A DNA stretch of 64,000 nucleotides from positions 1,612,001 to 1,676,000 of the forward strand of contig NZ_JACHLZ010000001.1 in the NCBI RefSeq assembly GCF_014204755.1. The letters run 5' to 3'. How positions within the stretch are numbered: the stretch's first letter is position 1; each line of letters begins with the position of its first letter. Below the pieces are notes generated by a model that worked only from the letters and a program-made list of their open reading frames with translations, was not told the origin of the DNA and made no database searches. Below, piece by piece: positions 5,219-46,906 of this stretch. The stretch comes from Brachybacterium aquaticum (lineage in GTDB: Bacteria; Actinomycetota; Actinomycetes; Actinomycetales; Dermabacteraceae). A program made the translations under genes and the position numbers.

Positions 5219-5246
5219 GCGCGAAGGGTCAGGCGCGAGGGATCAG
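5219..5246 (-). repeat. 14-bp tandem repeat containing the Rv2175c-like stop codon
   Basis: Two 14-bp units (5219-5232 and 5233-5246) differ at two positions. Read on the minus strand each begins CTGA, and the first CTGA supplies the stop codon of the DNA-binding protein gene. Confidence 0.6.
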
Positions 5247-5596
5247 AGTGCGAGCGCGAGGGCGCGTCGGCGCACCTCGCCGCGCTGACCGCGGCGCAGG
5301 TGGTCGATCGGACGGCCCGGCAGGGTCTCGTCCTCCTCGAACAGCCACGCCAGCAGCTCCTCGTCGGTGAAACCGCCGTCGCGCAGCACCGTGATCGTGC
5401 CGGAGAGGTGCGGGGCGATCTCCCCGTCGACCAGGAACAGCGCGGGGACCGAGCGCACCACCGGGTCGCCGCGTCGCACGGCGACGAGCTTGCCCTCCTC
5501 GATGAGGCGGCGGACGCGGGAGACCTCGACGTCGAGCCGCTCGGCGACGTCGGGAAGGGTGAGCCAGTCGGTGATGAGGGTGTCCAGGTCGTTCAC
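5243..5596 (-). CDS. Rv2175c-like winged helix DNA-binding protein
   Basis: A 117-residue protein related to M. tuberculosis Rv2175c, a DNA-binding substrate of PknL. The N-terminal helix-turn-helix reads WLTLPDVAERLDVEVSRVRR and is followed by a small C-terminal domain (FTDEELLAWLFEEDETLPGR). A threonine at position 6 (VNDLDTLI) lies in the same flexible tail that carries the phosphorylated threonine of Rv2175c; this correspondence is inference. The GTG at 5596 is chosen because homology begins there; no ribosome site is evident. It is divergent from the kinase gene, with 176 bp between the two starts, so co-regulation is likely. Confidence 0.85.
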   Translation of the reverse strand: MNDLDTLITDWLTLPDVAERLDVEVSRVRRLIEEGKLVAVRRGDPVVRSVPALFLVDGEIAPHLSGTITVLRDGGFTDEELLAWLFEEDETLPGRPIDHLRRGQRGEVRRRALALAL

Positions 5597-5760
5597 GGCA
5601 CAAGGGTGCCACGCCTCGGCGTCGCCCCGCACCTCTGTACGTGATGATCCGATCCGTCCGTGGTGATCCGGCACGATCCGAGGCCTTCGCGGAGCGTGTT
5701 CCCGGAGGTCTGTGCGGCGCGTCGCGTGTGTCGGTCCCCGTTCCTGGCACGGGACCGCCC

Positions 5761-5772
5761 TAGATTGACCTC
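5761..5772 (+). promoter_or_regulatory. Leaderless promoter of pknL
   Basis: TAGATT (5761-5766) ends six bases before the GTG start and no ribosome binding site lies between, so transcription should begin at or next to the start codon. Confidence 0.65.
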
Positions 5773-7959
5773 GTGAGTTCGGCGACGTCGACTTCCCCCG
5801 GCATCAGCCTGCTCCTCGACGACCGTTATCGGGTCGAGGAGCCGATCGCGCGCGGCGGAATGGCGACCGTGCACCGCGGCCATGACGAGCGTCTGGATCG
5901 CGTGGTCGCCCTGAAGATCATGCATCCCCATCTGGCGATGGACGAGGAGTTCCGGCGACGCTTCGGCCGCGAGGCCCGTGCCGCGGCCCGCCTCGCGCAC
6001 CGCAACGTGGTGGGAGTGTTCGACCAGGGCGGCGACGGCGACCGCATCTACCTGGCGATGGAGCTCGTCGAGGGCGAGACGCTGCGGGCCCGGATCGTGA
6101 AGAGGCACCGCCTCACAGTCGGCGAGACCCTGCGCATCACCGAGCAGGTGCTCGAGGCGCTCGTCGCCGCGCATCGCGCCGGCATCGTCCACCGTGACAT
6201 CAAGCCCGAGAACATCCTGCTGGACCTCACCGACACGGTGAAGGTCGCGGACTTCGGCCTCGCCCGCGCGATCGGGACGAACAACTCCTCCACCGGTGCG
6301 GCGCTGCTGGGCACCGTCGCCTACATCAGCCCCGAGGTCGTCACCCGCGGCGAGGCCGACGAACGCAGCGACCTCTACTCCCTCGGCGTCGTGATCTTCG
6401 AGATGCTCACCGGGCGCCAGCCGTTCCAGGGCGAGCAGCCCGTGCACGTCGCCTTCCAGCACGTCCACGACGACATCCCCGCCCCGTCCACCGTGGTCAC
6501 CGGCATCCCGCGGGAGCTGGACTCGCTGGTGACCTGGGCTGCGGCGCGCACCGTCTCCCAGCGGCCCGCGAGCGCGGAAGACCTGCTGCGCGCGGTTCGG
6601 GAGCTGCTTTCGACCCTCCCCGCCCGCGTGCTCGGCACCCGTCCGGAGCCGCGCAAGGACACCGCCACCGGCGACCTGCCGCGCGTCACCGCCTCCCTCG
6701 ACGAGGTCGCCGCCGAGCTACTGGGCCGCCCCCGCGCCTTCGATCCCGCCGCAGGTCTCGGAGCAGGTCCCACAGCGGGCGCCGGTGCGGCCGACGAGGA
6801 CTCGGCCCCGGCGACGGCCGGCGACCACGACGAGTCCCGGGCGGCTGCGTCGGCCGACCTCGGCGACGCAGACGGGACCGACGCAGCCGCGACCGACACA
6901 GGTGCGACCGACGCCGACACCCACGCCACCTCCGGGGCTGACGAGCCCGCCGCCGCGTCCTCCCCTGCTCCCGCCGCCGAGGAGCAGGACGAGACCTCGC
7001 GCAGCGTCGTCCTGCGCTCCCCCCGCGAACGGCGCGGCCGCCACCTGCCGGTCGGGACGCGCCACCGCTCCCGTCCCATGGCGGCGCTCGCCGCGCTGAG
7101 CCTCGCCGCGGCCCTCGTCGGCGGGGCCTGGACCGGCGGGGACTGGTACCTGAACACCGGTCCGGGCGCGGACCGCACCGTCCCCCTGGTCACCGGCACC
7201 CCGCTCGCCGATGCCGAGGCGGCGCTGAGCGCCTCCGACCTCACCGTGCGCACCGAGGAGCGCTTCGACGCCTCCGTCCCGGCCGGGCACGTCATCTCCT
7301 CGGAGCCCTCCACCGGCGCCACCGTGAAGAAGGGCGACGACATCCGCGTCGTCGTCTCCAAGGGCGAGGAGACCTTCCCGGTGCCCGCGCTCGAGGGCGT
7401 CGCCCTCGAGGATGCCCGCGCCGAGGTCGAGGCGCTGGGCCTCGAGCTCGTCGAGGACGATCCCGAGTACTCGGAGACCGTGCCCGAGGGGCAGGTCATC
7501 TCGCAGTCCGCCTCGGCCGACGCGCTGCCCGTCGGCGGCGAGGTGCACGTGGTCGTCTCCCAGGGGCGGATGCCGCTGAGCGTCCCGAACGAGACCGGCA
7601 ACTCCGGCTCCGCCGCCCGCTCCGCTCTCGAGGCCGCCGGGTTCGAGGTCACCGTGGGCGAGGCCCACTCGGCGAGCGTGCCTCGCGGCGCGGTGGTCTC
7701 CCAGTCCCCCGCCTCCGGCACCCTGTACCGCGGGGACACCGTCCACATCGTCACCTCGCTCGGCCCCGAGATGGTGACCGTCCCGGACGTGTTCCGCCAG
7801 CCCGAGGCCCAGGCGCGCGCCACCCTCGAGGCGGCCGGGTTCTCGGTCAGCGTCGTCCACGACAAGGGCGACCCCGTGTTCGGGCAGGTCTACGAGCAGT
7901 CCGCCGCCGCGGGCGGCCAGCTCGCCAAGGGCTCCACCATCACCATCAAGGTGTTCTGA
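5773..7959 (+). CDS. pknL: PASTA-domain Ser/Thr protein kinase (PknL/PknB-like)
   Basis: A membrane Hanks-type kinase of 728 residues. The cytoplasmic kinase domain spans about 16-285: glycine loop ARGGMATV, Lys48 (VALKIM), catalytic HRDIKPEN (Asp142), DFG at 160-162 and YISPEV. A Thr/Asp/Ala-rich linker (about 320-430) leads to one membrane helix near 434-460, then four extracellular PASTA repeats (about 470-728) expected to sense peptidoglycan fragments. The C-terminal residues KVF coincide with a tandem DNA repeat. The gene has a leaderless promoter and is divergent from its likely substrate gene. The pairing with the Rv2175c-like gene and class II DAHP synthase matches M. tuberculosis pknL rather than pknB, which sits with ftsW/pbpA. 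Confidence 0.93.
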   Translation: MSSATSTSPGISLLLDDRYRVEEPIARGGMATVHRGHDERLDRVVALKIMHPHLAMDEEFRRRFGREARAAARLAHRNVVGVFDQGGDGDRIYLAMELVEGETLRARIVKRHRLTVGETLRITEQVLEALVAAHRAGIVHRDIKPENILLDLTDTVKVADFGLARAIGTNNSSTGAALLGTVAYISPEVVTRGEADERSDLYSLGVVIFEMLTGRQPFQGEQPVHVAFQHVHDDIPAPSTVVTGIPRELDSLVTWAAARTVSQRPASAEDLLRAVRELLSTLPARVLGTRPEPRKDTATGDLPRVTASLDEVAAELLGRPRAFDPAAGLGAGPTAGAGAADEDSAPATAGDHDESRAAASADLGDADGTDAAATDTGATDADTHATSGADEPAAASSPAPAAEEQDETSRSVVLRSPRERRGRHLPVGTRHRSRPMAALAALSLAAALVGGAWTGGDWYLNTGPGADRTVPLVTGTPLADAEAALSASDLTVRTEERFDASVPAGHVISSEPSTGATVKKGDDIRVVVSKGEETFPVPALEGVALEDARAEVEALGLELVEDDPEYSETVPEGQVISQSASADALPVGGEVHVVVSQGRMPLSVPNETGNSGSAARSALEAAGFEVTVGEAHSASVPRGAVVSQSPASGTLYRGDTVHIVTSLGPEMVTVPDVFRQPEAQARATLEAAGFSVSVVHDKGDPVFGQVYEQSAAAGGQLAKGSTITIKVF

Positions 7960-8017
7960 GCCCGCACGGTGTTCTGAGCCCGCACGGTGTTCTTAACCCA
8001 CACGGTGTTCTGAACCC
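7950..8017 (+). repeat. 18-bp tandem repeat spanning the pknL stop codon
   Basis: Units GGTGTTCTGAGCCCGCAC at 7950-7967 and 7968-7985 are identical, 7986-8003 has three changes and a fourth partial unit covers 8004-8017. The first unit holds the last codons and stop of pknL, so the stop region exists in about four copies, in phase because 18 is a multiple of three. Confidence 0.9.
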
Positions 8018-8051
8018 CGCAGCCCCCCGTCGGCCGCACCCCGCACGCAGA

Positions 8052-8086
8052 AGCGGCGCCCGCCCCGGAAGGGGACGGGCGCCGCT
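8052..8086. terminator. Bidirectional terminator between pknL and aroG
   Basis: A G+C-rich hairpin with arms AGCGGCGCCCG-CCCC and its complement (one bulged A) around GGAA lies between the convergent ends of pknL and the DAHP synthase gene. There is no long T run, usual for actinobacteria. Confidence 0.75.
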
Positions 8087-8109
8087 CGCGTCGTCGGTGC
8101 GCTTGCCCC

Positions 8110-9507: not shown

Positions 9508-9519
9508 CCCGACAGGGTA
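9508..9519 (-). promoter_or_regulatory. Leaderless promoter of aroG
   Basis: On the minus strand TACCCT (9519-9514) ends six bases before the GTG at 9507, without a ribosome binding site between. Confidence 0.55.
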
Positions 9520-9579
9520 GCCAAGCCCGCGCCCTCCCGGGGCCCGGCACCCGAGGGGCGGGCGGGCATCACACCCGTC

Positions 9580-9635
9580 GGCCGACGGGGCAGGCCGAGG
9601 CGGCCGACGGGGCGGGGAGCGCGGGGCCGACGGGG
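9580..9635. repeat. Three copies of GGCCGACGGGG
   Basis: The 11-mer occurs at 9580, 9602 and 9625 (spacing 22-23 bp) just beyond the stop codon of the acyltransferase gene. The same GTCGGCCGAC-type word recurs in many intergenic and low-complexity coding places in the window. Confidence 0.7.
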
Positions 9636-9639
9636 AGGC

Positions 9640-10347: not shown

Positions 10348-10431
10348 GGGACGCTCCTGGGGTCTGCTCGGCGGCGGGATTGCGGACGGGGTGCGTGTGC
10401 GCCGTGCAGGAGCAGGTGCGACCATGTCCCC

Positions 10432-11217: not shown

Positions 11218-11822
11218 GCGGCGGACGCGACGGCCGCGGGCGGGCGCCGGAGCCTCGCCCCGATCCCCGGGACGTGGACGCCGAGTTCGCCCGCATGCTC
11301 GAGGGCGAGGGCGTCGTGCTGCCTCCCGGCGAGGCGCCGCGGGAGCTCGCCGCGCCCGCCGCCTCCCCGGCCTCGGCCGCGGACTCGAACCGGCACGACG
11401 ATGGGCACGACGACGAGGACAACGACCCGTGGTCCTTCAGCGCAGACTCCCCGCCGGAGCCGCCCACGCAGGAATCGCGCGAGCGCTCCCGCGCCGCCCA
11501 CCCCTCGCAGGGACTCTCCCCCGAGGCGAGGCCGACCGGTCCGCGGGACGCGACACCGCGCGAGCTCGACGACGACGAGGTGATCTACGGGGACTTCGTC
11601 GCCCCGGACCCCGACCTCCCCCAGCCGTCCTCGCCGGTGCTGTGGTCCTGGACCGCGCTGCTGGGCGGGTTCGTGCTCGTCCTCGTCATGGTCGTCACCC
11701 CGTCGCTGCCCGGATTCCTGGGCTGGCTCGGCGGGGTCGCCGCCCTTGGCGGCATGGTCTCGCTGCTGCTGCGCCTGCCGCGCGGGCGGCGCGAGGACGG
11801 GGACGACGGCGCCCAGGTCTGA
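11214..11822 (+). CDS. Hypothetical membrane protein
   Basis: A 202-residue protein I do not recognise. Residues 1-130 are acidic, proline-rich and disordered (including DDGHDDEDNDPWSF); DDDEVIYGDFVAPDPD follows, then two membrane helices (LWSWTALLGGFVLVLVMVV and GFLGWLGGVAALGGMVSLL) and a short basic tail. It overlaps the esterase gene by four bases and probably shares its transcript. A 21-bp duplication follows the stop codon. No function can be assigned. Confidence 0.75.
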   Translation: MSGGRDGRGRAPEPRPDPRDVDAEFARMLEGEGVVLPPGEAPRELAAPAASPASAADSNRHDDGHDDEDNDPWSFSADSPPEPPTQESRERSRAAHPSQGLSPEARPTGPRDATPRELDDDEVIYGDFVAPDPDLPQPSSPVLWSWTALLGGFVLVLVMVVTPSLPGFLGWLGGVAALGGMVSLLLRLPRGRREDGDDGAQV

Positions 11823-11828
11823 GCCGTC

Positions 11829-13017: not shown

Positions 13018-14826
13018 ATGAAGCAGTTCAGCACGCCCCCGCAGCACGAGAGCCGCCCCGACGAGAACGCGACGGATCTGCTGCTCGGCAGGCTCCGCGC
13101 GAATCCCTCGGTCCCGATCTACGAACTGGCGCAGGAGGGCGGCGGGTACACGCCGCTGAGCACCGCGGACTTCCTCGCCGAGGTCAAGGCCGTCGCCAAG
13201 GGCCTGATCGCCTCCGGCGTCGAGTCCGGAGACGTCGTCGCGATCCTGTCCCGCACCCGCTACGAGTGGGCGCTGGTGGACTGGGCCGTGTGGTGGGCCG
13301 GGGGTGTGAGCGTCCCGATCTACGAGACCTCCTCCCCCAGCCAGATCCAGTGGATCGCCTCCGATTCGGACGCGAAGTTCGCCCTCGTGGAGACCACCCG
13401 CCACAAGGAGGACGTGGAGTCCGTCCGCGGCGACCTGCCCTCCCTCACCCGGATCGGCGTGCTCGACGACGGGATCCTCGAGGACCTGAAGTCCCGCGGC
13501 AAGGACGTCTCCGACGAGGATCTCGAGGCGCGCCGCACCTCGCGCCGTCTCGAGGACGTCGCCACGATCATCTACACCTCGGGCACCACCGGCCGTCCCA
13601 AGGGCGCCGAGCTCACCCACGCCAACTTCGTGGACACCACCCGCAGCGCCGTGACGCTGCTGGGCGACGAGGTCCTCCCGACCGGCTCGCGCCTGCTGAT
13701 GTTCCTGCCGATGGCGCACGTGTTCGCGCGCCTGATCACGGTGCTCGCCGCCGCCTGGCCCGTCACCACCGCGTTCACCCCGGACACGAAGAACCTCCTG
13801 CCCGACCTCGCGGCCTTCAAGCCGACCTTCCTCCTCGCCGTCCCGCGTGTGTTCGAGAAGGTCTACAACGGCGCCGAGGCCAAGGCGATCGCCGGCGGCA
13901 AGGGCAAGATCTTCGCGGCCGCCGCGAAGACGGCCATCGACTACTCCACCGCCCTGTCCGAGGGGAAGGTGCCGCTGCCTCTGAAGGCCAAGCACAAGGT
14001 CTTCGACAAGCTCGTCTACGGCACGCTCCGCAACGCGATGGGCGGCCAGGTGAAGTGGGCCGTCTCCGGCGGCGCCCCGCTCGGCGCGCGCCTGTCGCAC
14101 TTCTTCCGCGGCATCGGGGTGACGATCCTGGAGGGCTACGGCCTCACCGAGACCACCGCGCCCATCAGCGTGAACCTTCCCTGGGACGTGCGCCCCGGCA
14201 CCGTCGGCCCGCCGCTGCCCGGCGCCTCCGTCGCGATCGACGACGACGGCGAGCTGCTGGTCAAGGGCGTGATGGTCTTCAAGGGGTATCACAACAACCC
14301 CGAGGCCACCGAGGAATCGTTCAAGGACGGCTGGTTCCACACCGGCGACCTCGGCGCCCTCGCGGAGGACGGCTCGATCACCATCACCGGCCGCCGCAAG
14401 GAGGTCATCGTGACCGCCGGCGGCAAGAACGTCTCCCCCGCCCAGCTCGAGGACCAGCTGCGCTCCCACCCGCTGGTCAGCCAGTGCGTGGTCATCGGCG
14501 ACCAGAAGCCCTTCGTCGCCACGATCCTCACGCTGGATGCCGAGATGCTCCCCACCTGGCTGAAGAACAACGGCCTGCCGGAGATGTCGGTCACCGAGGC
14601 GGCCCAGGACCAGCGCGTCCGGGCCGAGCTGCAGACGGTCGTGGACCGCGCGAACACCTCCGTCTCCCGCGCCGAGTCCATCCGCGCCTTCGAGGTCATC
14701 GACTCGGACTTCACCGAGGAGAACGGGTACCTCACCCCCTCGATGAAACTCAAGCGCAACGTGGTCGTGAAGGACATGGCCCCGATCATCGACAAGATCT
14801 ACTCGAGCTCGAAGCCGAAGAGCTGA
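13018..14826 (+). CDS. Long-chain fatty-acid-CoA ligase (FadD15-like)
   Basis: An AMP-forming acyl-CoA synthetase of 602 residues that activates long-chain fatty acids. Motifs in order: YTSGTTGRPKGAELTH near 185, the LPMAHVFAR gate region, GYGLTETTAPIS, TGDLGALAEDGSI and GRRKEVIVTAGGKNVSP. The AAGGAG six bases before the ATG is strong. The same position in M. tuberculosis is taken by fadD15 (Rv2187). The stop codon lies in the first unit of a 13-bp tandem repeat and a perfect hairpin follows. Confidence 0.93.
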   Translation: MKQFSTPPQHESRPDENATDLLLGRLRANPSVPIYELAQEGGGYTPLSTADFLAEVKAVAKGLIASGVESGDVVAILSRTRYEWALVDWAVWWAGGVSVPIYETSSPSQIQWIASDSDAKFALVETTRHKEDVESVRGDLPSLTRIGVLDDGILEDLKSRGKDVSDEDLEARRTSRRLEDVATIIYTSGTTGRPKGAELTHANFVDTTRSAVTLLGDEVLPTGSRLLMFLPMAHVFARLITVLAAAWPVTTAFTPDTKNLLPDLAAFKPTFLLAVPRVFEKVYNGAEAKAIAGGKGKIFAAAAKTAIDYSTALSEGKVPLPLKAKHKVFDKLVYGTLRNAMGGQVKWAVSGGAPLGARLSHFFRGIGVTILEGYGLTETTAPISVNLPWDVRPGTVGPPLPGASVAIDDDGELLVKGVMVFKGYHNNPEATEESFKDGWFHTGDLGALAEDGSITITGRRKEVIVTAGGKNVSPAQLEDQLRSHPLVSQCVVIGDQKPFVATILTLDAEMLPTWLKNNGLPEMSVTEAAQDQRVRAELQTVVDRANTSVSRAESIRAFEVIDSDFTEENGYLTPSMKLKRNVVVKDMAPIIDKIYSSSKPKS

Positions 14827-14872
14827 TCCCGTCGGCCGACCCCATCAGCTGATCCCGTCAGCTGATGTCGTC
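14821..14872 (+). repeat. 13-bp tandem repeat starting at the acyl-CoA ligase stop codon
   Basis: Four 13-bp units: AGCTGATCCCGTC (14821-14833), a diverged GGCCGACCCCATC (14834-14846), AGCTGATCCCGTC again (14847-14859) and AGCTGATGTCGTC (14860-14872). The first unit contains the stop TGA. Confidence 0.85.
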
Positions 14873-22852: not shown

Positions 22853-23092
22853 CTCGTCGCCTGGCGCGGGGCCGTTCGGCGGCTGACAGCGCTCTTCTCC
22901 CACCGCAGTGGCATGGTCACGCCGTGCTGGGCCCTCTCCCCCGGCCAGGGTGCTTGACGTGTCGCTGCTCCGCAGGGATAGCGACGCCTCATGCACCCTG
23001 CCCCGCCGGCAACGACGCGTCAGGCACCTTAGCCGCACAGATCAACTGGCGTGAGGCAGTACGGCCGACGAGTTGCGACACGGTGCCAGGCG

Positions 23093-23146
23093 CAGAGGCC
23101 CGCGGCTCAGAGGCCCGCGGCTCAGAGGCTCAGAGGCTCAGAGGCT
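23093..23146 (-). repeat. 15-bp and 8-bp tandem repeats after a small gene
   Basis: Two units CAGAGGCCCGCGGCT (23093-23107, 23108-23122) and three units CAGAGGCT (23123-23146). On the minus strand the array directly continues from the stop codon of the small gene and each unit carries CTG/CTGAG. Confidence 0.9.
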
Positions 23147-23421
23147 CAGGACAGGAGCATTCCCCTGCCTCGACGCCCTTGGGGATCCTCCCGCCCGCCG
23201 GCGATATCTACGAGATGACGTGCGGCGACGGGTCGAAGACGACGATCCGCGCGGCGCAGCGTGCGCAGGGCCCGCAGAGGTCGATCCGCGGGGTCGACGC
23301 CCGCCTGTGACAAGACGTCCAGCGCCCACGTCACGGCGTCACGCTCGCCGCCCTGTCCGGGGTACAGCACGGCGATCTGTGCTCGAGCTCGGTCTCTCGG
23401 GCTGATGGATGGTCCGATCAT
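23146..23421 (-). CDS. Small hypothetical protein
   Basis: A 91-residue reading frame starting MIGPSISPRDRARAQIAVLY and ending in an arginine-rich tail. I do not recognise it. Support for coding: the ATG has AGGGGAG about eight bases upstream, third codon positions are G+C-rich and the middle (ERDAVTWALDVLSQAGVDPA) looks like an amphipathic helix. The same frame stays open upstream to 24111 but that part has poor coding character. It lies alone between the qcr and cta gene clusters. Confidence 0.5.
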   Translation of the reverse strand: MIGPSISPRDRARAQIAVLYPGQGGERDAVTWALDVLSQAGVDPADRPLRALRTLRRADRRLRPVAARHLVDIAGGREDPQGRRGRGMLLS

Positions 23422-24178
23422 CTTGGGTCTCCCCTCGCTCCGAGGACCTCCGCCGCACTCGGCGTGCGCAGATCCGGGGTGGACTCGGTGCAAACACGCT
23501 AGCACCTGCCAGAGCGACGACCCATGGTGCGTCACAGCGCTCGCAGCACGCCTCGGCGCGCAACCACGCTTTAGCGCAGGAACCCCGACTCGGAGCAGAA
23601 ACACGGCCCTGGCCGACTCTCTCCGCCTGCCGCATCGCACGGTCCGCAGACGCCCCTTGCGATCCGCTCGTCTACATCCGCTTTCAGCTGTACAGACCTT
23701 TACATGGCATATCCGCCGTACAACAGTTCCTACCCCACCAAGTTCGGCGGTGGCCGGACTGCCAGCACTCTCACGTTCGATGCGCGCAGACAGTTCGATC
23801 ATCAGTGCGCACAGGAGCTCCTTTCTCCGGCGGAACTCTGCAGCCGCGTGCTGCGCGCTATCACTCCGCGGCTCGACCTGCGGCAGAGGTCTCCCGAGGG
23901 CCGGAAGGATGCCGTCTGCTCCTGTGCGGCGCAAGGGTGCCCGCCCTGCGGTCTCGTGGAGTGTCGGACCCGCCCGCCGGGCCCGATGCCGTGCTCGGCA
24001 GACAGCACCAATGCAGTCTGCTGTGCACAGCGATCGCCGGAGGCAGAACGCCCGTCCTCGGCGTGCAGAGACCCCGACTGGTCGATGCGGAGTCCCGCGG
24101 CCCGCACACATGCGCGCGCCTCACTTCCGGTGCCTTCCTCTCCGAGCCCCCGGCGATCCCTGCCTCGGCATGCAGGAA
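23422..24178. other. About 750 bp with no convincing gene
   Basis: Open frames exist on both strands but none shows a ribosome site plus the strong third-position G+C bias of neighbouring genes, and A+T content is visibly higher than around it. No tRNA, transposase or direct repeats are seen. It may be a decayed gene or foreign DNA between the two respiratory clusters. Confidence 0.5.
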
Positions 24179-27673: not shown

Positions 27674-27757
27674 GTGAAGGTGCGCCGTCCGCGGGACGGC
27701 GCCGTGGCGTCCGGTGCGTGCGTCTCCGTGCCCGGCCGACGGGGCGGGTCCGTCGTC

Positions 27758-27799
27758 GGCCGACGCCGATCGACCGACGCCGATCACCTGAAGACGATC
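27758..27799 (-). repeat. 14-bp tandem repeat after the ErpA-like gene
   Basis: Units GGCCGACGCCGATC (27758-27771) and GACCGACGCCGATC (27772-27785) are nearly identical; a third, diverged unit (27786-27799) reaches the stop codon. Confidence 0.65.
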
Positions 27800-28157
27800 A
27801 GCTGAAGGAGTCGCCGCAGGCGCAGGAGCTGCCCGCGTTGGGGTTGTCGATGGTGAAGCCCTGCTTCTCGATGGTGTCGGCGAAGTCGATGACCGCACCG
27901 GTGAGGTAGGGGCTGCTCATCTTGTCGACGATCACCTCGACGCCCTCGAAGTCGGCGACCAGGTCGTCGTCCATGAGGCGCTCGTCGAAGTACAGCTGGT
28001 AGATCAGGCCGGAGCAGCCGCCGGGCTGCACCGCGATCCGCAGGCGGAGGTCGTCGCGTCCCTCCTGCTCCAGCAGGGTGGTCACCTTGTGGGCGGCCTC
28101 GGACGTGAGGGTGACGCCATGCGCCGCGGTGGGGCGCTCGGTGGTGGGCGTGGTCAT
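27798..28157 (-). CDS. erpA: HesB/IscA/ErpA-type iron-sulfur cluster insertion protein
   Basis: An A-type carrier of 119 residues that delivers Fe-S clusters to apoproteins. The three ligand cysteines are present: Cys48 (PGGCSG) and CxC at 112-114 (SSCACGDSFS). GAGGAGG lies six bases before the ATG at 28157. It sits upstream of the ctaC operon as Rv2204c does near ctaC in M. tuberculosis, so supply of clusters to the respiratory chain (for example the Rieske protein) is a reasonable inference. Confidence 0.92.
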   Translation of the reverse strand: MTTPTTERPTAAHGVTLTSEAAHKVTTLLEQEGRDDLRLRIAVQPGGCSGLIYQLYFDERLMDDDLVADFEGVEVIVDKMSSPYLTGAVIDFADTIEKQGFTIDNPNAGSSCACGDSFS

Positions 28158-35522: not shown

Positions 35523-35558
35523 ACCCCGCACGGATGTGACTCAGGTCATCGCGGAGGG

Positions 35559-35606
35559 GCGTCAGCGCGGGAATCAGCCCGCGCGTCAGCGCAGGCGTCA
35601 GTCCTT
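35559..35606 (-). repeat. 12-bp tandem repeat spanning the hisS stop codon
   Basis: Four 12-bp units (35559-35570, 35571-35582, 35583-35594, 35595-35606), each with TCAG on the plus strand, that is CTGA in the hisS direction. The unit nearest hisS supplies its stop. Confidence 0.75.
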
Positions 35607-36971
35607 CGCCGCGGAGTCCTCCGCCTCGCTCCCGAGGATCCGCACCACGCGGTCCTCCGCCGGGGGCTCCCAGGTCGCGGCGTCGGCCGGGACCTGCTCG
35701 CCGCTGCGGATGTCCTTGACCTCGTCGGCGACGCCGTCGGTGCCGGGGAACCAGATGAAGGGGATGCCGCGGCGGTCGGCGTAGCGGATCTGCTTGCCGA
35801 ACTTCGCGGCCGTCGGCGCGACCTCGCAGGCGATGCCGCGGCGGCGCAGCTGCCGGGCCGCCTCGTCGCTCGCCCCGCGGTGCTGCTCATCGGCGACGGA
35901 GACCAGCACGCAGGTGGGCACCGGGCGGGAGGGCTTGGCGAGACCGGCCGAGAGCAGGCGGGAGACCAGGCGCGACAGCCCGATGGACAGGCCCACGCCC
36001 GGGTAGGTGTGGCGGTTGTCCGAGGCGAGGGAGTCGTAGCGGCCGCCGGAGCAGATCGAGCCGAGGGACTCGTGGCCGGTCACGAAGGTCTCGAAGACGG
36101 TGCCGGTGTAGTAATCCAGACCTCGGGCGATGGACAGGTCCGCGACGACCACGCCCGGGACCGCGGCCTCGACGCGCTCGATGACGGCGGTGAGCTCGGC
36201 GATGCCCTGCTCGACCATCTCGCCGTTGCCGCCGAGCGCCCGGACCTGGTCGGCGAAGGAGGCGTCACGGGTGCGGATGGAGGCGAAGGCGAGGGCGGCC
36301 TCGGCCTGCTCCTCGCTCGCGCCGGCCTCCTCGCGCAGCAGGGCGCGCACGGCGTCGGCCCCGATCTTGGGGAGCTTGTCGAGGCTGCGCAGCACGGCCG
36401 CATTGTCCTCGAGCCCGAGGGAGCGGAAGAACCCCTCGGACAGGCGCCGGGTGTTGGCATGGATGGTGAAGGCGGGCAACGGCAGACGGTCGAGGATCTC
36501 GGCCATGACCACCGCGACCTCGGCCTCGATGTGGCCCGGGAGGGTGTCCTGGCCGATCACGTCGAGATCGGCCTGGTAGAACTCGCGGAAGCGGCCGTCC
36601 TGGGGGCGCTCGCCGCGCCACACCTTCTGGATCTGGAAGCGGCGCAGCGGGAAGGCGAGGTCGTTCTGGTGCTCGAGCACGTACCGCGCGAGCGGGACGG
36701 TGAGGTCGAAGTGCAGGCCGAGCGTGCGCGAGGGATCGCTGCTCTCGCCGTCGGCGTCGTCCTCCGCATGCAGGCGCCGCAGGACGTACACCTCCTTGTC
36801 GATCTCGCCCTTGCGCAGCATCTGCTCGAGCGGCTCGACCGCGCGCGTCTCGATGCCGGAGAACCCGTGCAGCTCGGCGACCTCCCGGAACACGTCGATC
36901 ACGTGCTGCTCGACGAGGCGCTCTGCGGGCAGCCACTCCGGGAATCCTGACAGGGCGGCGATCTTCGCCAT
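35598..36971 (-). CDS. hisS: Histidyl-tRNA synthetase
   Basis: A class II synthetase of 457 residues. Motif 1 surrounds the RAVEPLEQML stretch, motif 2 is VWRGERPQDGRFREFYQADL, the HisA signature is ARGLDYYTGTVFE and motif 3 is YPGVGLSIGLSRLV. The C-terminal anticodon-binding domain covers about 355-440. AGAAGGAA lies ten bases before the ATG at 36971; a GTG three codons upstream is too close to it. The order relA-DUF349-hisS-aspS resembles Rv2583c-Rv2572c. Confidence 0.96.
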   Translation of the reverse strand: MAKIAALSGFPEWLPAERLVEQHVIDVFREVAELHGFSGIETRAVEPLEQMLRKGEIDKEVYVLRRLHAEDDADGESSDPSRTLGLHFDLTVPLARYVLEHQNDLAFPLRRFQIQKVWRGERPQDGRFREFYQADLDVIGQDTLPGHIEAEVAVVMAEILDRLPLPAFTIHANTRRLSEGFFRSLGLEDNAAVLRSLDKLPKIGADAVRALLREEAGASEEQAEAALAFASIRTRDASFADQVRALGGNGEMVEQGIAELTAVIERVEAAVPGVVVADLSIARGLDYYTGTVFETFVTGHESLGSICSGGRYDSLASDNRHTYPGVGLSIGLSRLVSRLLSAGLAKPSRPVPTCVLVSVADEQHRGASDEAARQLRRRGIACEVAPTAAKFGKQIRYADRRGIPFIWFPGTDGVADEVKDIRSGEQVPADAATWEPPAEDRVVRILGSEAEDSAAKD

Positions 36972-37214: not shown

Positions 37215-38912
37215 GTGAGCGAGTCCGAGACTCCCCTCCCCGCCTCGACCCCCGCCGACCCGGCGACCGCGCCGAGCGACGAGGCCGCCGTCGCGCAGTC
37301 CTCCGACCCGGTCGCGGACCCGGCCCCCCAGAGCCCGGCGCCCGAGGAGGCGGCCGACGAAGCTCCCGCGGCCGACGAGGTTCCCGCGGCGGAGGAAGCG
37401 CCCGCGACCGAGGAAGCGCCTGCGGCCGACGCGACTCCGTCGGCCGGTTCCGACGAGGAGTCCGCGTCGGCCAATTCCGCGCCCGCTGAAGCCGCACCCG
37501 CAGAGGCGGCGCCCGCCGCCGCGAAGCCGACCCCGCGCGCTCCCGGCGCGCCGCGCCCCCGCCCGGCCGCGCCCTCCCCCGCCGCGCTCGCCGCGAAGAA
37601 GCCCAGTGCCGCGCTGCTGCCGGTCGCCCCGCCGGTCACCGAGTACGACCCCGAGCAGATCGCCGCGGCGAAGGCCTTCGGTGCGGTCGCCGAGGACGGC
37701 TCCGTCACCGTGCAGGACGGCACCCAGGTGCGCACCATCGGCACGTCCACCGAGGCGGACCACGACGCGGCGCTCGAGCCCTTCGCGAAGGCCTATCTGG
37801 ACCTGGTCGCGTTCCTGGATCTCACCCAGACCACGCTGAACGCTCCCGAGCACACCCAGAACGAGCTCAACCGTCTGCTCGAGAACCTGCGCAAGAACAT
37901 GAAGGAGCCGCAGGTCGTCGGCGACATCCCGGCGCTGCGCGCTCGCGCGGCCGAGCTGCGCGAGCAGGCCAAGGAGAAGATCCGCGCCCTCGAGGCGAAG
38001 CGGGCCGAGGGTCGCGAGGCCGCGACCCAGCGCCGCACCGAGTTCGTGGAGTCCATCGAGGCGCTGGTCGCCACCGATCCCGAGCAGCTCTCCTGGAAGA
38101 GCGCCGGGGAGACCATGCGCCAGATGGTGCCGACCTGGAAGCAGATGCAGTCCGAGGACGTCGCCCTGGACCGGCCCACCGAGGAGGCGCTGTGGAAGCG
38201 GCTCTCGACGGCCCGCGCCTCCTTCGACCGCATGCGCAAGCAGTTCTTCTCCCAGCTCGACGAGCGCCACGGCGAGGCCGCCAAGGTCAAGGAGGAGCTG
38301 ATCGCCCGCGCCGAGGCGATGCAGGACTCCACCGACTGGGGCCCCACGGTCCGCGCCTACAAGGACCTCATGGACGAGTGGCGCAATGCCCCGCGCGGCA
38401 GCCGCAAGAAGGACGACGCCCAGTGGAAGCGGTTCAAGGCCGCCCAGGACGCGTTCTTCCAGGCCCGCAACGCCGACCTCCACGAGACAGAGGCGGAGCA
38501 GCGCAAGAACCTCGAGGCCAAGGAGGCCCTGCTGGTCGAGGCTGAGGCCATCGACCCGGGCACGGACCTCGAGGGCGCGAAGAAGGCGCTGCGCTCGGTC
38601 CAGGACCGCTGGGAGGAGGCCGGCAAGGTGCCGCGCGGGGACATGCGCCGCGTCGACGACCGCCTCCGCGCCGTGGAGCGGGCGGTGAAGGACGCCGAGC
38701 AGGCCGAGTGGCGCCGCACCGATCCGCGGACCAAGGCCCGCGTCGAGGGCGCGTCCTCGCAGCTGCACTCCGCGATCGCCTCGTACGAAGAGGCGCTCGA
38801 GAAGGCCCGCGCCGGCGGCGATCCGAAGAAGATCGCCGAGGCCGAGGCCGCGCTCGAAGCCCGCAAGGAGTGGCTGGCCGTCATCGAGCGCTCCGCCCGC
38901 GACCTGGGCTGA
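37215..38912 (+). CDS. DUF349 protein
   Basis: A 565-residue protein of unknown function, conserved next to relA in actinobacteria. The first 135 residues are an Ala/Pro/Glu-rich disordered head with repeated pentapeptide-like words (APAADEVPAAEEAPATEEAP). The remainder is helical and contains several DUF349 repeats, seen as W-containing units (WGPTVRAYKDLMDEWRNAP, WKRFKAAQDAFFQARNADLH, RWEEAGKVPRGDMRRVDDRL). GAAGGAG lies before the GTG. No enzyme motif is visible. Confidence 0.9.
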   Translation: MSESETPLPASTPADPATAPSDEAAVAQSSDPVADPAPQSPAPEEAADEAPAADEVPAAEEAPATEEAPAADATPSAGSDEESASANSAPAEAAPAEAAPAAAKPTPRAPGAPRPRPAAPSPAALAAKKPSAALLPVAPPVTEYDPEQIAAAKAFGAVAEDGSVTVQDGTQVRTIGTSTEADHDAALEPFAKAYLDLVAFLDLTQTTLNAPEHTQNELNRLLENLRKNMKEPQVVGDIPALRARAAELREQAKEKIRALEAKRAEGREAATQRRTEFVESIEALVATDPEQLSWKSAGETMRQMVPTWKQMQSEDVALDRPTEEALWKRLSTARASFDRMRKQFFSQLDERHGEAAKVKEELIARAEAMQDSTDWGPTVRAYKDLMDEWRNAPRGSRKKDDAQWKRFKAAQDAFFQARNADLHETEAEQRKNLEAKEALLVEAEAIDPGTDLEGAKKALRSVQDRWEEAGKVPRGDMRRVDDRLRAVERAVKDAEQAEWRRTDPRTKARVEGASSQLHSAIASYEEALEKARAGGDPKKIAEAEAALEARKEWLAVIERSARDLG

Positions 38913-38983: not shown

Positions 38984-38989
38984 CAGCGG

Positions 38990-42275: not shown

Positions 42276-42372
42276 GCACACCTCCCTGGATGGAAGGCCC
42301 CAGTCTACGCGCGGGTCACCGGTGCCACGGCACGGTCCGCCGCGGGCGCGGACGCACTCCGCGCAGCGCCCG

Positions 42373-42417
42373 CGGTTCCGGGCTCAGCGTGTGCAGGCTC
42401 AGCGGTTCCGGGCTCAG
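42373..42417 (-). repeat. 15-bp tandem repeat spanning the apt stop codon
   Basis: Units CGGTTCCGGGCTCAG at 42373-42387 and 42403-42417 are identical; the middle unit 42388-42402 (CGTGTGCAGGCTCAG) keeps the GGCTCAG end. In the apt direction each unit starts CTGAGCC and the first CTGA is the stop. Confidence 0.88.
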
Positions 42418-42980
42418 AGGGTCCAGACCGCGCTGAGCGGCACGCCGGGCAGCTGGTCCCGGCCGCCGAGCCCCTCGAGCTCGATGAGGAAGGAGGCGCC
42501 CAGCAGCTCCACGTCGAAGCGTCGGGTCAGCTCGATCGTCGCCGCAGCCGTGCCGCCGGTGGCGAGCAGGTCGTCGACCACGAGGGTGCGTGCTCCGGCC
42601 GGCAGGGAGTTCTCCGGGATCTGGATCTCGGCGCTGCCGTACTCGAGGTCGTACTTCAGGCCCGCGGGGCGGCCGGGAAGCTTGCCTGCCTTGCGCACCG
42701 GGATGAACCCGGCACCGAGCTCGTAGGCGAGCGGCGCGCCGAGCACGAAGCCGCGCGCCTCGGTGCCCACCACGTACTCGATCCCCTCGGGCAACAGGGT
42801 CGTCCACCAGCGGATCACCGCGCGCAGCGCCGCGGCGTCGCGCAGCAGCGGGGTGATGTCGCGGAACAGCACGCCGGGGGTGGGGAAGTCCGGGTACTCG
42901 GTGATGTGGCTGGTGCGCAGGGCGTCGATCTCAGCGGCCGTGGGAAGCGGCTCGGCGGGGTGCTGCGGAGCGGTCATCAT
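42414..42980 (-). CDS. apt: Adenine phosphoribosyltransferase
   Basis: A purine-salvage enzyme of 188 residues converting adenine and PRPP to AMP. YPDFPTPGVLFRDITPLL is the typical N-terminal block and LVVDDLLATGGTA the PRPP loop. GAGG from the end of secF lies just before two adjacent ATG codons (42980 and 42977); the first is used. It is six bases from the secF stop and so belongs to the secD-secF-apt transcript. Confidence 0.95.
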   Translation of the reverse strand: MMTAPQHPAEPLPTAAEIDALRTSHITEYPDFPTPGVLFRDITPLLRDAAALRAVIRWWTTLLPEGIEYVVGTEARGFVLGAPLAYELGAGFIPVRKAGKLPGRPAGLKYDLEYGSAEIQIPENSLPAGARTLVVDDLLATGGTAAATIELTRRFDVELLGASFLIELEGLGGRDQLPGVPLSAVWTL

Positions 42981-42985
42981 GGTCC

Positions 42986-44236
42986 TCACCTGCCGGTGCG
43001 TCGGCGTCGAGTGGTCCGTCGCGGCTGCTGCCGGACGGGTCGGGGGGAAGCTGCGGAGCGGGCCGACGCGGCGGTCCCCTCGGCCGGGTCCTCCCGCCCT
43101 GCGTCGAGGCCGTCCTCGAGATCGTCGTCGAGATCATCGTCGAACGCGTCCTCGGACGCGTCGTCCCGGCGCCCGTCGGCCCGGTCCTCGTCGGCCCGGC
43201 CCTCGTCGGCCCGGCCCTCGTCGGCCGACGCGCCGGCCGGAGCGAGCGCGCCGTCGGCCCCGCCGCGCCGCGCGCGCAGCACGGAGGCGGTGTGCTCCTT
43301 GATCTCGGGCTCGCGCTTGCGCAGGTCCACCAGGACGCCCGGGGCGAGGAAGATCGAGGAGTAGGTGCCGGCGAGGATGCCGATGAACAGGGCCAGCGAG
43401 ATGTCCTTGAGCGTGCCGGCGCCCAGCAGGAACGCGCCGATGGCGAGGATAGAGCCGATCGGCAGCAGCGCCACTATCGAGGTGTTGATCGAGCGGACCA
43501 GGGTCTGGTTCGCGGCGAGCTCGACGAGGTCCGCGAACGTGCGCCGTCGCTGCGAGGTGAGGTCGGCGGTGTTCTCACGGACCTTGTCGAACACGACGAT
43601 CGTGTCGTACAGCGAGTAGCCCATGACGGTGAGGAAGCCGATCACGGTGCCGGGGGTGATCTCGAAGCCCACCACGCCGTACACGGCCGCGGTGAGGATC
43701 ATGTCGTGCAGCAGCGCGACCATCGCCGCGAGCGAGGACTTCAGGTTGCGGAAGTACAGCGCCATCATCGTCGCGACGAGCACGAGGAAGACGATCACGC
43801 CGCGGGCCATCTTCTGGGTGACGTCGCCGCTCCACACCGGGCCGATGTAGGAGGTGGAGATCGCCTCGGGCGAGACGTCGTAGGCGGCTGCGAGGTCCTC
43901 GGCGAGGGCTGCGGTCTCGGTGGAGTCCAGCTCCTCCGTCTGCACGCGCAGGGTGTCGGCGCCGAGCTGGGTGATCTTGGGCTCGTTGTCGGGCAGGTGC
44001 TCGCGCACCACCTCGCGGGCGGAGGTCTGCTCGGTGTCGGCCACACCCGCGATCTGGAACTCGGACCCGCCGGTGAACTCGATGCCGAGGTTCAGCCCGC
44101 GCACCACGGCGAGGGTGCTGAGGATCAGCACCACGATGATGCTGGCCAGGTACCAGGTGCGCCGGCGGGAGACCAGCGGCAGGATCCGGTGACCGGCGTG
44201 GAGGTCGTTGCCGAACTTGGCGAAGGTGGCGGTCAT
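42986..44236 (-). CDS. secF: Protein translocase subunit SecF
   Basis: A membrane component of SecDF that uses proton motive force to pull exported proteins across the membrane. 416 residues with six helices (first near 27-48, five between about 140 and 320); LGIEFTGGSEFQI is the periplasmic base and GYSLYDTIVVFDKVREN the conserved helix-4 block. After about residue 330 there is a long charged tail with pentapeptide repeats (ADEGRADEGRADEDRADG) and Asp/Arg-rich runs not needed in other SecF proteins. The ATG overlaps the secD stop (ATGA). Confidence 0.95.
   Translation of the reverse strand: MTATFAKFGNDLHAGHRILPLVSRRRTWYLASIIVVLILSTLAVVRGLNLGIEFTGGSEFQIAGVADTEQTSAREVVREHLPDNEPKITQLGADTLRVQTEELDSTETAALAEDLAAAYDVSPEAISTSYIGPVWSGDVTQKMARGVIVFLVLVATMMALYFRNLKSSLAAMVALLHDMILTAAVYGVVGFEITPGTVIGFLTVMGYSLYDTIVVFDKVRENTADLTSQRRRTFADLVELAANQTLVRSINTSIVALLPIGSILAIGAFLLGAGTLKDISLALFIGILAGTYSSIFLAPGVLVDLRKREPEIKEHTASVLRARRGGADGALAPAGASADEGRADEGRADEDRADGRRDDASEDAFDDDLDDDLEDGLDAGREDPAEGTAASARSAASPRPVRQQPRRTTRRRRTGR
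43175..43234 (-). repeat. 15-bp coding repeat in the SecF tail
   Basis: Units at 43175-43189, 43190-43204, 43205-43219 and a partial fourth encode the ADEDR/ADEGR pentapeptides. Confidence 0.85.
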
Positions 44237-46107
44237 CGGCTCTGCTCCTCGGTGTCGTCACCGGTGTTCCCGGCCCGGCTGTTCTCCGCCCGACCGTTCT
44301 GCGCCGCCTCGCGCTCGGCGGCCTCGCGGGCCTCACGGGCGCGGCGCACGGCGATCGGCTCGCGCGCGGGCTCGGCGGACTCGTCACCGCTGCGGCGCAG
44401 GCCGCGTCGGCCCCGCTCGTCGCCCGTGCGCACGCGGCCGCGGCCGGCGTAGGCGGGGACGTCGCGGTCCAGCCGCGCCGGGTCCAGGCCGCTCCAAGGG
44501 TGGCCCTTGCCGAAGAAGCGCGTGCGCACGAGGGCCTGCAGCATCGGATGGGTGAACAGGAACACGACCACGAGGTCGAGCACCGTGGTCAGGCCCAGCA
44601 CGAAGGCGAAGCCGCGCACGCCGCCGGTGGAGAGCACGTACAGCACGATCGCGGCGATCAGGTTCACCGAGTCGGAGGCGAGGATGGTGCGCTTGGCGCG
44701 GTCCCAGCCGTGGTCGACAGCCGCGGCGATGCCCCGGCCCTCGCGGATCTCGTCGCGCACGCGCTCGAAGTAGACGATGAACGAGTCCGCGGTGAAGGCG
44801 ATCGCGACGATCAGGCCCACCACGCCCGCGAGCGAGAGGCGGTAGCCGATCTCGGGAATGTTCGAGAGCACGGTGAGGGTGCCATAGGTCAGCAGACCCA
44901 TGATCAGCAGGCTCGAAGTGGTCACGATCGACAGCGCCCGGTACTGGGCGAAGGCGTACAGCACCACGAGCGCCAGGCCGATCAGGCCCGCGATCAGACC
45001 CATCTCGAGCTGGTCGGCGCCGAGGGTGGCGGAGATCTGCTGCTCGGAGGCGACCTCGAACTGCAGCGGCAGCGCACCGAAGCGGAGCTGGTCGGCGAGC
45101 TGGGTCGCCTGCTCCTGGCTGAAGTTGCCCGAGATCGAGGCCTCGCCGCCCGGCGAGGGCTCCTGCACCTGGGGTGCGGAGATGACCACGCCGTCCAGCA
45201 CGATCGCGAAGGCGTCGGAGGCGCCCTCGCCGTTGTAGAGCGCCGAGGTCATGTCCGAGAAGGACTGCGAGGCGACGTCGGTGAAGCGCATGTTCACCAC
45301 GTAGTAGCCGGTGGGCTGACCGGTGGGGGTGACGTCCGAGGCGACGGAGGCGTCCGCGATCCCGGCGCCGGCGACGACCTCGGGGCCGAGGAGGTACTTC
45401 GCGCTGCCGTCCGGCGCGCAGGCGACGATCGCCTCGTCCGGCGCAGCGGCGGAGGCTCGCTCATGCTGGGCGCCCGGGTCGACGCAGTCGGCGTTCATCA
45501 GCTCGGTCTGGACGTCAGGGGTCAGCCAGTCCAGCGACCAGGCCGGGTAGGCCAGCTCGCCCTCAGCCGGCGCGGGCGCCGGGGCGAGGGAGGAGTCCTC
45601 GCTGATCAGGCCGTCGAAGAGCTGCTGGGAGGGGTCGGCGGGGGCCGACGAGGACTCCCCGGTGGTGTCGCCTCCGCCGTCGGAGGCGTCCCCGCCGCCG
45701 TCGGACGGCAGGGGCTCGCCGGTCCCCTCCGGGGCGACGACGCCGAGCACCGGGCGGAAGGACATCGCGGCGGTCTGGCGGATCGCGGCGGCCGTCTGCT
45801 GGTCCAGCTGTCCGGGCACGTCGATGACGATGTTCGTGCCGCCCTGCACGGTGATCTCGGTCTCCGCCACGCCCATCGCGTTGATGCGCTGGCTCATGAT
45901 CTGGCGCGCCTGCTCCATGGCGGAGGCGTCGATCGCCGAGCCGTCACGGGACTGCGCCTGGAGGATGACCTGGGTGCCGCCCTCGAGGTCGAGGGCGAGC
46001 TTGGGGGCGGGCTGCCATCCGCCCCACTGGGTCCCGGCACCGATCCCGCCGCCCAGCAGCAGGATCAGCACGGCGAGGGCCGCGAGGGCGATGCGACGTG
46101 CGGGCAT
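44233..46107 (-). CDS. secD: Protein translocase subunit SecD
   Basis: Partner of SecF, 624 residues. One N-terminal helix (about 5-26), the P1 domain with LALDLEGGTQVILQA, an Asp/Ser/Gly-rich insert around 130-165, then five helices from about 375 with AIAFTADSFIVYFERVRDE. The C-terminal 90 residues are a basic cytoplasmic tail (RREAREAAEREAAQNGRAEN-like). It overlaps secF by four bases; yajC is 86 bp upstream. Confidence 0.95.
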   Translation of the reverse strand: MPARRIALAALAVLILLLGGGIGAGTQWGGWQPAPKLALDLEGGTQVILQAQSRDGSAIDASAMEQARQIMSQRINAMGVAETEITVQGGTNIVIDVPGQLDQQTAAAIRQTAAMSFRPVLGVVAPEGTGEPLPSDGGGDASDGGGDTTGESSSAPADPSQQLFDGLISEDSSLAPAPAPAEGELAYPAWSLDWLTPDVQTELMNADCVDPGAQHERASAAAPDEAIVACAPDGSAKYLLGPEVVAGAGIADASVASDVTPTGQPTGYYVVNMRFTDVASQSFSDMTSALYNGEGASDAFAIVLDGVVISAPQVQEPSPGGEASISGNFSQEQATQLADQLRFGALPLQFEVASEQQISATLGADQLEMGLIAGLIGLALVVLYAFAQYRALSIVTTSSLLIMGLLTYGTLTVLSNIPEIGYRLSLAGVVGLIVAIAFTADSFIVYFERVRDEIREGRGIAAAVDHGWDRAKRTILASDSVNLIAAIVLYVLSTGGVRGFAFVLGLTTVLDLVVVFLFTHPMLQALVRTRFFGKGHPWSGLDPARLDRDVPAYAGRGRVRTGDERGRRGLRRSGDESAEPAREPIAVRRAREAREAAEREAAQNGRAENSRAGNTGDDTEEQSR

Positions 46108-46193
46108 GGTGGGGTGTTCCTCAGGACGGCGGATTCGGGGAGAGGGCGCGGGTCACCGAGGGCCCGCGTCGCGGAGGGTCAGAGCACGCGAGC

Positions 46194-46676
46194 TCAGCGC
46201 TCGCGGGGCTGCTCGTCGCCGCGGGGGTCGTCATCGGCGACGGTGACACCGGGGACGGTGCCGCGGTTCTGCTCGAAGCGGTCCTGCTCGGCGCGGTCCT
46301 GCGCGAAGCGGTCCTGCTCGCCGTCGACGGTGCGGGAGTCGAAGGAGTCGTCGGCGAGCTCGCCGTCCTGCGGGGCATCCTCGAGCTCGGAGAGCTCGCC
46401 GTCCACGACCGGCCCGGTGGTGGGCTCGACGGCCATGGCGATGGCCTGGCGGGCCCACTTGGTCTGGCTGCCGTCCTCCGACTCGAGCACGACGATGTCC
46501 TCGTACTCCTCGACGATCAGACCGTAGAACCCGGAGTGGGTGCGCACCTCGTCGCCGACGCCGAGCTGCTTGACCAGCTCCATCTGCTTCTGCTGCATCT
46601 TGCGCTGGCGGTTCGACAGCAGCAGCAGGGGCAGCATCATGACGGCGAAGATGAGCAGGATGGGAAGGAGTTCCAC
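46194..46676 (-). CDS. yajC: Preprotein translocase accessory subunit YajC
   Basis: A 160-residue protein with one N-terminal membrane helix (LLPILLIFAVMMLPLLLLSN) and the YajC domain (LGVGDEVRTHSGFYGLIVEE). From about 105 onward it has an acidic tail with DRFxQ-type pentapeptide repeats encoded by a 15-bp DNA repeat. The GTG at 46676 has AGAGAGGAAA upstream. Position before secD is standard. Confidence 0.92.
   Translation of the reverse strand: MELLPILLIFAVMMLPLLLLSNRQRKMQQKQMELVKQLGVGDEVRTHSGFYGLIVEEYEDIVVLESEDGSQTKWARQAIAMAVEPTTGPVVDGELSELEDAPQDGELADDSFDSRTVDGEQDRFAQDRAEQDRFEQNRGTVPGVTVADDDPRGDEQPRER
46264..46323 (-). repeat. 15-bp coding repeat in the YajC tail
   Basis: Four units (46264-46278, 46279-46293, 46294-46308, 46309-46323), each with CGGTCCTG or CGGTTCTG, encode the QDR-type pentapeptides. 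Confidence 0.85.
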
Positions 46677-46855
46677 GGATTTCCTCTCTGCGGGCAGCAC
46701 CGTCGCGCGTGCTCGCGCACCCGGCCGGCCTGCCGCGGACACGACTGACCGCACCACTGTACCCGCCGTGCCCTGACCGGCCTCCCAGGGGAGACATGTG
46801 CCGCAGGCCCATCGGCGCGCTTGCTGGGGACCGTTCCCGGCTCAGCCCCCGGGGA

Positions 46856-46906
46856 GACTCAGAACCGCCCGAGACTCAGCACCGCCCGAGGCTCAGAACC
46901 GCCCGA
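46856..46906 (-). repeat. 17-bp tandem repeat spanning the ruvB stop codon
   Basis: Three 17-bp units GACTCAGAACCGCCCGA-type (46856-46872, 46873-46889, 46890-46906) with two substitutions. The unit nearest the gene encodes the last residues LGRF and the stop of ruvB. Confidence 0.9.

Follow-up and report, generated by a model that had tools for sequence, protein, structure and literature searches.

Introduction

Bacterial minisatellites, or variable-number tandem repeat (VNTR) loci, consist of short units placed head to tail, and the MIRU repeats overlap gene ends. We analyze here a group of short tandem arrays in a stretch of 64,000 nucleotides (the window), bases 1,612,001-1,676,000 of the single-contig genome of Brachybacterium aquaticum (3,449,336 bases; contig NZ_JACHLZ010000001.1), where an earlier note on the DNA letters had listed eight genes that end in or at such an array. 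When the wider genome is sampled, tandem arrays do cluster at gene ends in this Brachybacterium genome, beyond chance. The mycobacterial-style gene names used below (e.g., Rv2175c-like) are names of orthologs, and the host genome is not mycobacterial.

Several described systems share features with these arrays. In the passages available from the report on archaeal Borgs, arrays start inside gene ends, and units within coding sequence are divisible by three while just 14-38% of intergenic units are (PMC9879509); the present genome likewise has arrays at gene ends, and its units keep the frame inside genes but not necessarily elsewhere. Borg repeats are described in those passages as perfect and A-rich, whereas only seven of the 26 stop-covering arrays in our sample have perfect copies, and they reside in the GC-rich DNA of an ordinary bacterial chromosome. 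A survey of short repeats states in its discussion that bacterial and archaeal repeats lie preferentially downstream of gene ends, while its results section reports an enrichment that is weak and found both upstream and downstream of bacterial genes (PMC12699852). Unit lengths in the passages available from that survey reach 9, and these passages draw no link to stop codons, with zero occurrences of the phrase. The TAACTGA intergenic repeats of the Beggiatoaceae are, in the available part of the account, a single fixed heptamer found mostly just upstream of putative starts (PMC4679880); they resemble the present arrays in having tandem units that contain a stop triplet, but the units found here are unrelated in sequence and are sited at stops. 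The mycobacterial MIRU, described in the extract at hand as a repetitive element of approximately 100 bp at 41 scattered places (PMC2734929), also forms intergenic tandem arrays in an actinobacterium, unlike the 7-21 bp units without common sequence described here. Ho and Hurst tested for selection for additional stops in eubacteria and, in the portion of their work available, found none. Passages from three further papers (PMC4060949, PMC2884548, and PMC4849082) had no bearing on stops, and no paper devoted to tandem arrays at bacterial stop codons as a group appeared among the matches listed in the open-licence literature.

Given the gene-end arrays of Borgs, the weak gene-end bias of bacterial repeats, and the lack of selection for extra stops, we class the present arrays with the ordinary repeats of minisatellite type, set apart by a marked position that can mostly be explained. 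They share with minisatellite or VNTR loci the short head-to-tail units and, in one spacer array, a clean difference in unit number between close species; unlike those loci, they are strongly concentrated at stop codons.

Excess of arrays at stop codons

The sample of the genome comprised the window and 40 evenly spread stretches of 20 kb, 864 kb in all, in which genes were called by a simple custom finder rather than a standard annotation program, giving 702 stops and 729 starts. Arrays were detected with a custom scanner (self-match scoring of +1/-2, periods of 7-30, and a working cut-off of 12, lowered to 7 for the window) and independently with Tandem Repeats Finder (TRF), using a score of 50 for the genome-sample counts. 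Dinucleotide-shuffled spacers served as the null, shuffled once for the custom scanner and five times for TRF, and against these shuffles both detectors found head-to-tail copies beyond chance. This applies, to a sample, the comparison with shuffled controls and start codons that the earlier note had proposed for the complete genome. With the custom scanner, 26/702 stops lay inside arrays, compared to 1/702 after shuffling and 3/729 starts; with TRF, 41/702 stops lay in arrays, compared to 3-5 in the shuffles and 6/729 starts.

The excess also holds against other non-coding DNA of the same genome. Under uniform placement of arrays in non-coding sequence, the expected number covering a stop is 5.25, whereas 25 of the 80 arrays do so, a count not attained in any of 2000 simulations. 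Restricting the test to spacers of 400 bp or less leaves 24 stop-covering arrays against 7.8 expected, and convergent spacers alone have eight against 3.7 expected (p = 0.02). In other members of the genus, drawn from a search over 38 Brachybacterium genomes, 12 of 59 arrays cover a stop against 3.34 expected, or 12 against 5.96 in spacers of 400 bp or less (p = 0.0145). This genus sample is not fully independent, as the sampled stretches of genomes G034 and G012 are partly orthologous; genome G042, which has no gene calls and contributes no stops, was excluded from the placement test, and coding fractions of 0.53-0.63 in G008, G027, and G035 indicate missed genes that inflate the genus spacer length. 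In nine further genomes of the same order, 2 of 21 arrays cover a stop against 0.95 expected, which is not significant. Stop-covering arrays thus exceed uniform expectation both in this genome and in its genus, and the absence of any excess over other non-coding DNA, which the earlier note had named as grounds for giving up its claim, is not what was found.

Position, period, and sequence of the arrays

The earlier note had described the arrays as beginning at the stop codon. That they lie at stops is borne out, but a fixed starting point is not: their 5' ends range from approximately -20 to approximately +30 around the stop and then thin out in the 3' direction. In 10-base bins from -20 to +29, the custom scanner gives a 5'-end density of 0.0011-0.0026 per base, falling to approximately 0.0006 from +30, while TRF gives 0.0035 at -20 to -1, 0.0026 at 0 to 19, 0.0015 at 20 to 39, and approximately 0.0006 beyond 100. 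For starts, the TRF values are 0.0002-0.0004 over the nearest 20 bases and 0.0007-0.0023 between 20 and 120 bases upstream. The profiles at stops therefore show no sharp seed at the stop codon but rather a plateau or gentle peak whose edge toward the gene lies roughly one unit in. Consistent with such an edge, intrusion into the gene, including the stop, is no more than one period in 23 of the 26 arrays, the exceptions being intrusions of 15 bases with a period of 13, 14 with a period of 7, and 40 with a period of 21, the last of which keeps the frame.

The sampled stop arrays have periods of 7-21 bp, and as had been claimed, these are not restricted to multiples of three; their remainders modulo three are distributed 10/8/8, so that 10 of 26 are divisible by three. 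Of 189 arrays that lie at least half within genes, by comparison, just five among those at least 90% within have a period not divisible by three. The frame rule that coding arrays stay in frame and non-coding arrays are free accordingly holds here, as it does for minisatellite and VNTR arrays.

The unit sequences are otherwise unrelated, as the earlier note had it: the units of the 26 stop arrays share 6- to 10-mers no more often than equal pieces taken at ordinary stops, with 10 shared 9-mer pairs among the former and 10.0 among the latter. A 501-base query that includes the pknL array matched its own genome at no other place over the array portion. A dispersed repeat family of the MIRU type was rejected on these two grounds.

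The observation that most units carry CTGA also stands, since CTGA is found at 22 of the 26 array stops compared to 413 of all 702 stops in the sample. In other Brachybacterium, CTGA occurs at 8 of the 12 array stops with a visible codon (13 in total), a count taken without a genus baseline, and among spacer arrays away from stops 7 of 54 contain CTGA or TCAG against 5.4 expected. An origin driven by CTGA was considered and rejected on these last two results, despite the bias in the genome itself. At another sampled locus (L061, 16106-16171), a perfect array of 3.7 copies of 18 bp starts inside the stop of an ABC-transporter ATPase gene and its later units are stop-free, showing that the unit need not contain a TGA.

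No common function was seen among the 26 genes that end in arrays, which include ligA-, argS-, RNase J-, pcrA-, luxS-, and cydB-like genes. The possibility that they are false genes, chance open reading frames closed by TGA-rich arrays, gains something from the use of a custom finder but is extremely improbable, as 21 of the 26 have Pfam matches (three in the window and 18 of 23 outside it), with domains running close to the last residue in ArgS (582/582), RNase J (563/564), and PcrA (936/937), the stops of pknL and ruvB match those of their orthologs (16 and 7 loci), and arrays are as frequent at strong gene calls (18/437) as at weak ones (8/265).

Comparison with relatives

A query with the pknL region of the window found 18 loci in the genome collection, comprising 15 in Brachybacterium, two in one Actinomycetales metagenome-assembled genome, and one encoding a distant Minicystis kinase. 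An array over the pknL stop was present in none of 16 relatives' loci, and none of the seven relatives' ruvB loci examined has an array over its stop. In all of these loci the stop sits where the TGA of the first unit sits in the window, indicating that the stop is old and that the repeats are missing from every relative looked at. Orthologs of the acyl-CoA ligase and Rv2175c-like genes were compared at a scanner cut-off of 9; the ligase array was absent from all 15 orthologous loci, and one of 15 Rv2175c-like orthologs had a score-9 array over its stop, the array of the window itself being weaker at a score of 8. In one of the 16 pknL loci, that of Brachybacterium alimentarium (L038), a different 7-bp array lies 16-55 bases after the stop.

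Divergence around genes was profiled in one pair of genus genomes, G034 and G012, which are approximately 96% identical and were aligned over 110 kb. In successive 20-base bins after stops, substitutions amount to 8.6, 7.4, 5.5, 7.3, 5.2, 3.2, 2.9, and 3.5%; before starts, the two nearest bins have 3.5 and 3.9%. Five non-coding arrays could be aligned between these genomes: in one, the difference is precisely one 14-bp unit, one is off by nine bases of a 10-bp unit, and two are scrambled. The fifth, a 15-bp array at a stop (L125, 14239-14281), has three units in both species, which means that at least one stop array has outlived a species split. No second strain of B. aquaticum was found among the 38 genus genomes searched.

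Origin of the arrays

The stop arrays are probably ordinary tandem duplications of the minisatellite or VNTR type, produced by slippage and filtered by selection. This reading takes up four observations, namely the excess at stops, the frame rule, the substitution gradient, and the fact that relatives have no arrays at pknL and ruvB, and adds to them slippage as the presumed cause and a presumed neutrality of the arrays. Replication slippage would yield tandem duplications everywhere in the genome, and their fates would differ by location. A duplication that spans a stop should be harmless at any length, because the first copy retains the last codons and the stop while the extra copies land in the spacer. 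One lying wholly within a gene would as a rule be kept only when its unit length is divisible by three, and one at a start or ribosome-binding site would disturb initiation and rarely survive. The first tens of bases 3' of the stop are, meanwhile, the least constrained of the non-coding DNA measured. With filtering inside genes and at starts, and the freest DNA directly after stops, arrays would pile up at gene ends and appear to be "seeded" there. Such a filter predicts an upstream edge, a free period, unrelated unit sequences, unrelated genes, and a lack of conservation, all of which are seen. The first option of the earlier note, slippage products kept because they are harmless, fits these data, while actual seeding at stop codons is only weakly indicated, by the residue described below.

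Several results weigh against this reading. When placement is weighted by the substitution profile, 10.8 of the 24 stop-covering arrays in spacers of 400 bp or less are expected (Poisson p = 0.0003-0.0004); if indels are assumed to be two powers more constrained than substitutions the expectation rises to 14 (p = 0.01), and with three powers it is 18-19 (p of approximately 0.1). A 1.3- to 2.2-fold excess at stops is thus left over after constraint weighting and is unexplained. The profile itself comes from a single pair and 110 kb, with few counts far from stops. Stops are also not the sole free DNA, as more than 40 bases before starts substitutions reach 5-7% in most bins (2.7% in one) and the TRF array density reaches 0.0023 per base in one bin. 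The single stop array that could be aligned between species, L125, shows no change in copy number. CTGA is over-represented at the array stops of this genome (22/26 compared to 391/676 at the others; p = 0.007). Finally, stops lie in arrays at approximately three times the genus rate here (26/702 compared to 13/1136; p = 0.0003). Spacer arrays number 0.80 per kb in this genome compared to 0.29 in the genus, the latter figure being lowered by the missed genes in three genomes, and the ratio is 2.7 for all spacers and 2.2 for those of 400 bp or less. Loss of the mismatch-repair gene nucS was considered as a cause of the high rate and rejected, since nucS is present (37 of 38 genus genomes match).

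The residue may be read instead as the mark of a mutational hot spot, in which the exit of ribosomes at gene ends leaves naked RNA, R-loops, or paused polymerase, and with them more slippage and true seeding. In the form that also addresses the raised rate of this lineage, more short tandem duplications would be born at the stop, where translated RNA gives way to untranslated RNA, than relaxed constraint accounts for, on top of a rate raised across the strain. We regard the hot spot, with or without this lineage effect, as unlikely. Besides the 1.3- to 2.2-fold residue, it has in its favor the peak of TRF 5' ends at -20 to +19 over the level beyond +100, and a density at -20 to +9 that rises from 4/3154 where a short, operon-like tandem spacer follows to 7/1860 for long tandem spacers and 9/2580 for convergent spacers of mid size. 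The identical pattern would be expected, however, if indels are more constrained than substitutions, and long convergent spacers do not fit (1/1080). The densities at -20 to -1 and 0 to +19 are moreover close to each other, so that the stop codon is not singled out.

The earlier note had also raised a selected device, naming ribosome clearance, 3'-end processing, and backup stops as its possible use, and the data do not support this. A role in spacing or 3'-end formation, whereby arrays fix the distance from the stop to a terminator or RNA-processing site, was suggested by the pknL and acyl-CoA ligase arrays, which by eye separate the stop from an inverted repeat further downstream, and by convergent spacers, which are shorter when they carry a stop array (median of 63 in eight) than in controls (median of 100 in 68). 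This role was examined through the energy and position of the best hairpin 3' of the array, the controls being half of all stops whose spacers measure at least 25 bases, chosen at random. The mean distance to the hairpin was 17-19 bases after arrays and 21-22 after ordinary stops; the energies, compared without a significance test, were -26.4 (eight array stops) and -28.6 (68 controls) in convergent spacers and -25.1 (18 array stops) and -21.5 (120 controls) in tandem spacers. With no clear difference from ordinary stops, and with pknL and ruvB lacking arrays in relatives, this explanation was set aside as very improbable. Selection for backup stop codons, extra TGAs that would catch read-through or frame-slipped ribosomes, is very improbable, even though most units contain a TGA and the 17-bp period of the ruvB array places TGAs in all three frames. 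Of the 26 arrays, 23 include the complete stop codon, and in these the later copies match the first at 94/103 stop positions and 370/405 other positions, so the stops decay as fast as their surroundings; an in-frame backup would be possible in at most 10 of the 26 arrays; and the available part of Ho and Hurst reports no selection for additional stops in eubacteria. Copy identity and frame were the grounds for rejecting fail-safe stops.

Slippage followed by selective filtering therefore remains the account that we favor for what is a measured case of tandem duplications gathering at the stops of a bacterial chromosome (26/702 by custom scanner and 41/702 by TRF). It supplies a null model, with the first copy intact and the spacer little constrained, that should be excluded before repeats at gene ends are called regulatory. 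The residual excess, if upheld, would point to a mutational effect of translation ending. Such arrays could also double as strain markers.

Arrays and other features of the window

All eight arrays listed in the earlier note were reported by TRF, two of them weakly (Rv2175c-like and hisS), and four (pknL, ruvB, the small gene, and ErpA-like) passed the custom scanner's cut-off of 12, with the ligase and apt arrays just below at 11. Pfam agrees at the family level with the gene identities given there for seven of the eight, the small gene being the exception.

The strongest is that of pknL (7950-8017, plus strand; TRF score of 108 and custom score of 38), with 3.8 copies of 18 bp and the stop at 7957-7959 within the first unit of a gene encoding a kinase with PASTA domains. 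The ruvB array (46854-46907, minus strand; 94 and 28) has 3.2 copies of 17 bp with the stop at 46893-46895 within the first unit, and its gene matches the RuvB family. At the 3' end of the small gene, a 321-residue open reading frame at 23146-24111 on the minus strand, 15-bp and 8-bp arrays occupy 23089-23149 (TRF scores of 84 and 75; custom scores of 23 and 23). This reading frame adjoins a gene for cytochrome c oxidase subunit IV and has no Pfam match, but it is matched in 34 of 38 genus genomes, its own included, and elsewhere mainly over the C-terminal approximately 100 residues. The ErpA-like array (27756-27807, minus strand) has 3.7 copies of 14 bp that span the stop of a gene at 27798-28157 with the Fe-S_biosyn domain (PF01521); TRF reports it as two halves scoring 53 and 47, and the custom scanner scores it at 17.

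The acyl-CoA ligase array (14821-14866, plus strand; TRF score of 64) has 3.5 copies of 13 bp and includes the stop at 14824-14826 of the gene at 13018-14826, which matches the AMP-binding enzyme family; the custom scanner places it from 14828, just past the stop. The apt-like array (42372-42417, minus strand; TRF score of 64) has 3.1 copies of a 15-bp unit at the stop of a gene at 42414-42977 with a phosphoribosyltransferase domain (PF00156). Of the two weak arrays, that of the Rv2175c-like gene (5219-5246, minus strand; TRF score of 42) has 2.0 copies of 14 bp, with the stop at 5243-5245 of a gene at 5243-5596 that contains the Rv2175c_C and Rv2175c_wHTH domains. The array of hisS, the histidyl-tRNA synthetase gene by Pfam (35598-36971), is degenerate, with 3.8 copies of 12 bp at the stop (35557-35601, minus strand; TRF score of 55 with 72% matches), and was undetected by the custom scanner at a cut-off of 7.

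Strong arrays within coding sequence, with in-frame periods of 15 or 18, are present in the window at 47934-47998, 43159-43226, 37350-37431, and 46263-46320, including one within the 5' portion of ruvB as called and another in a YajC-domain gene. A search of the whole window with Rfam at gathering scores returned four tRNAs only, and these form a cluster at 63326-63731 on the minus strand consisting of Val(GAC), Cys, Gly, and Val(CAC).

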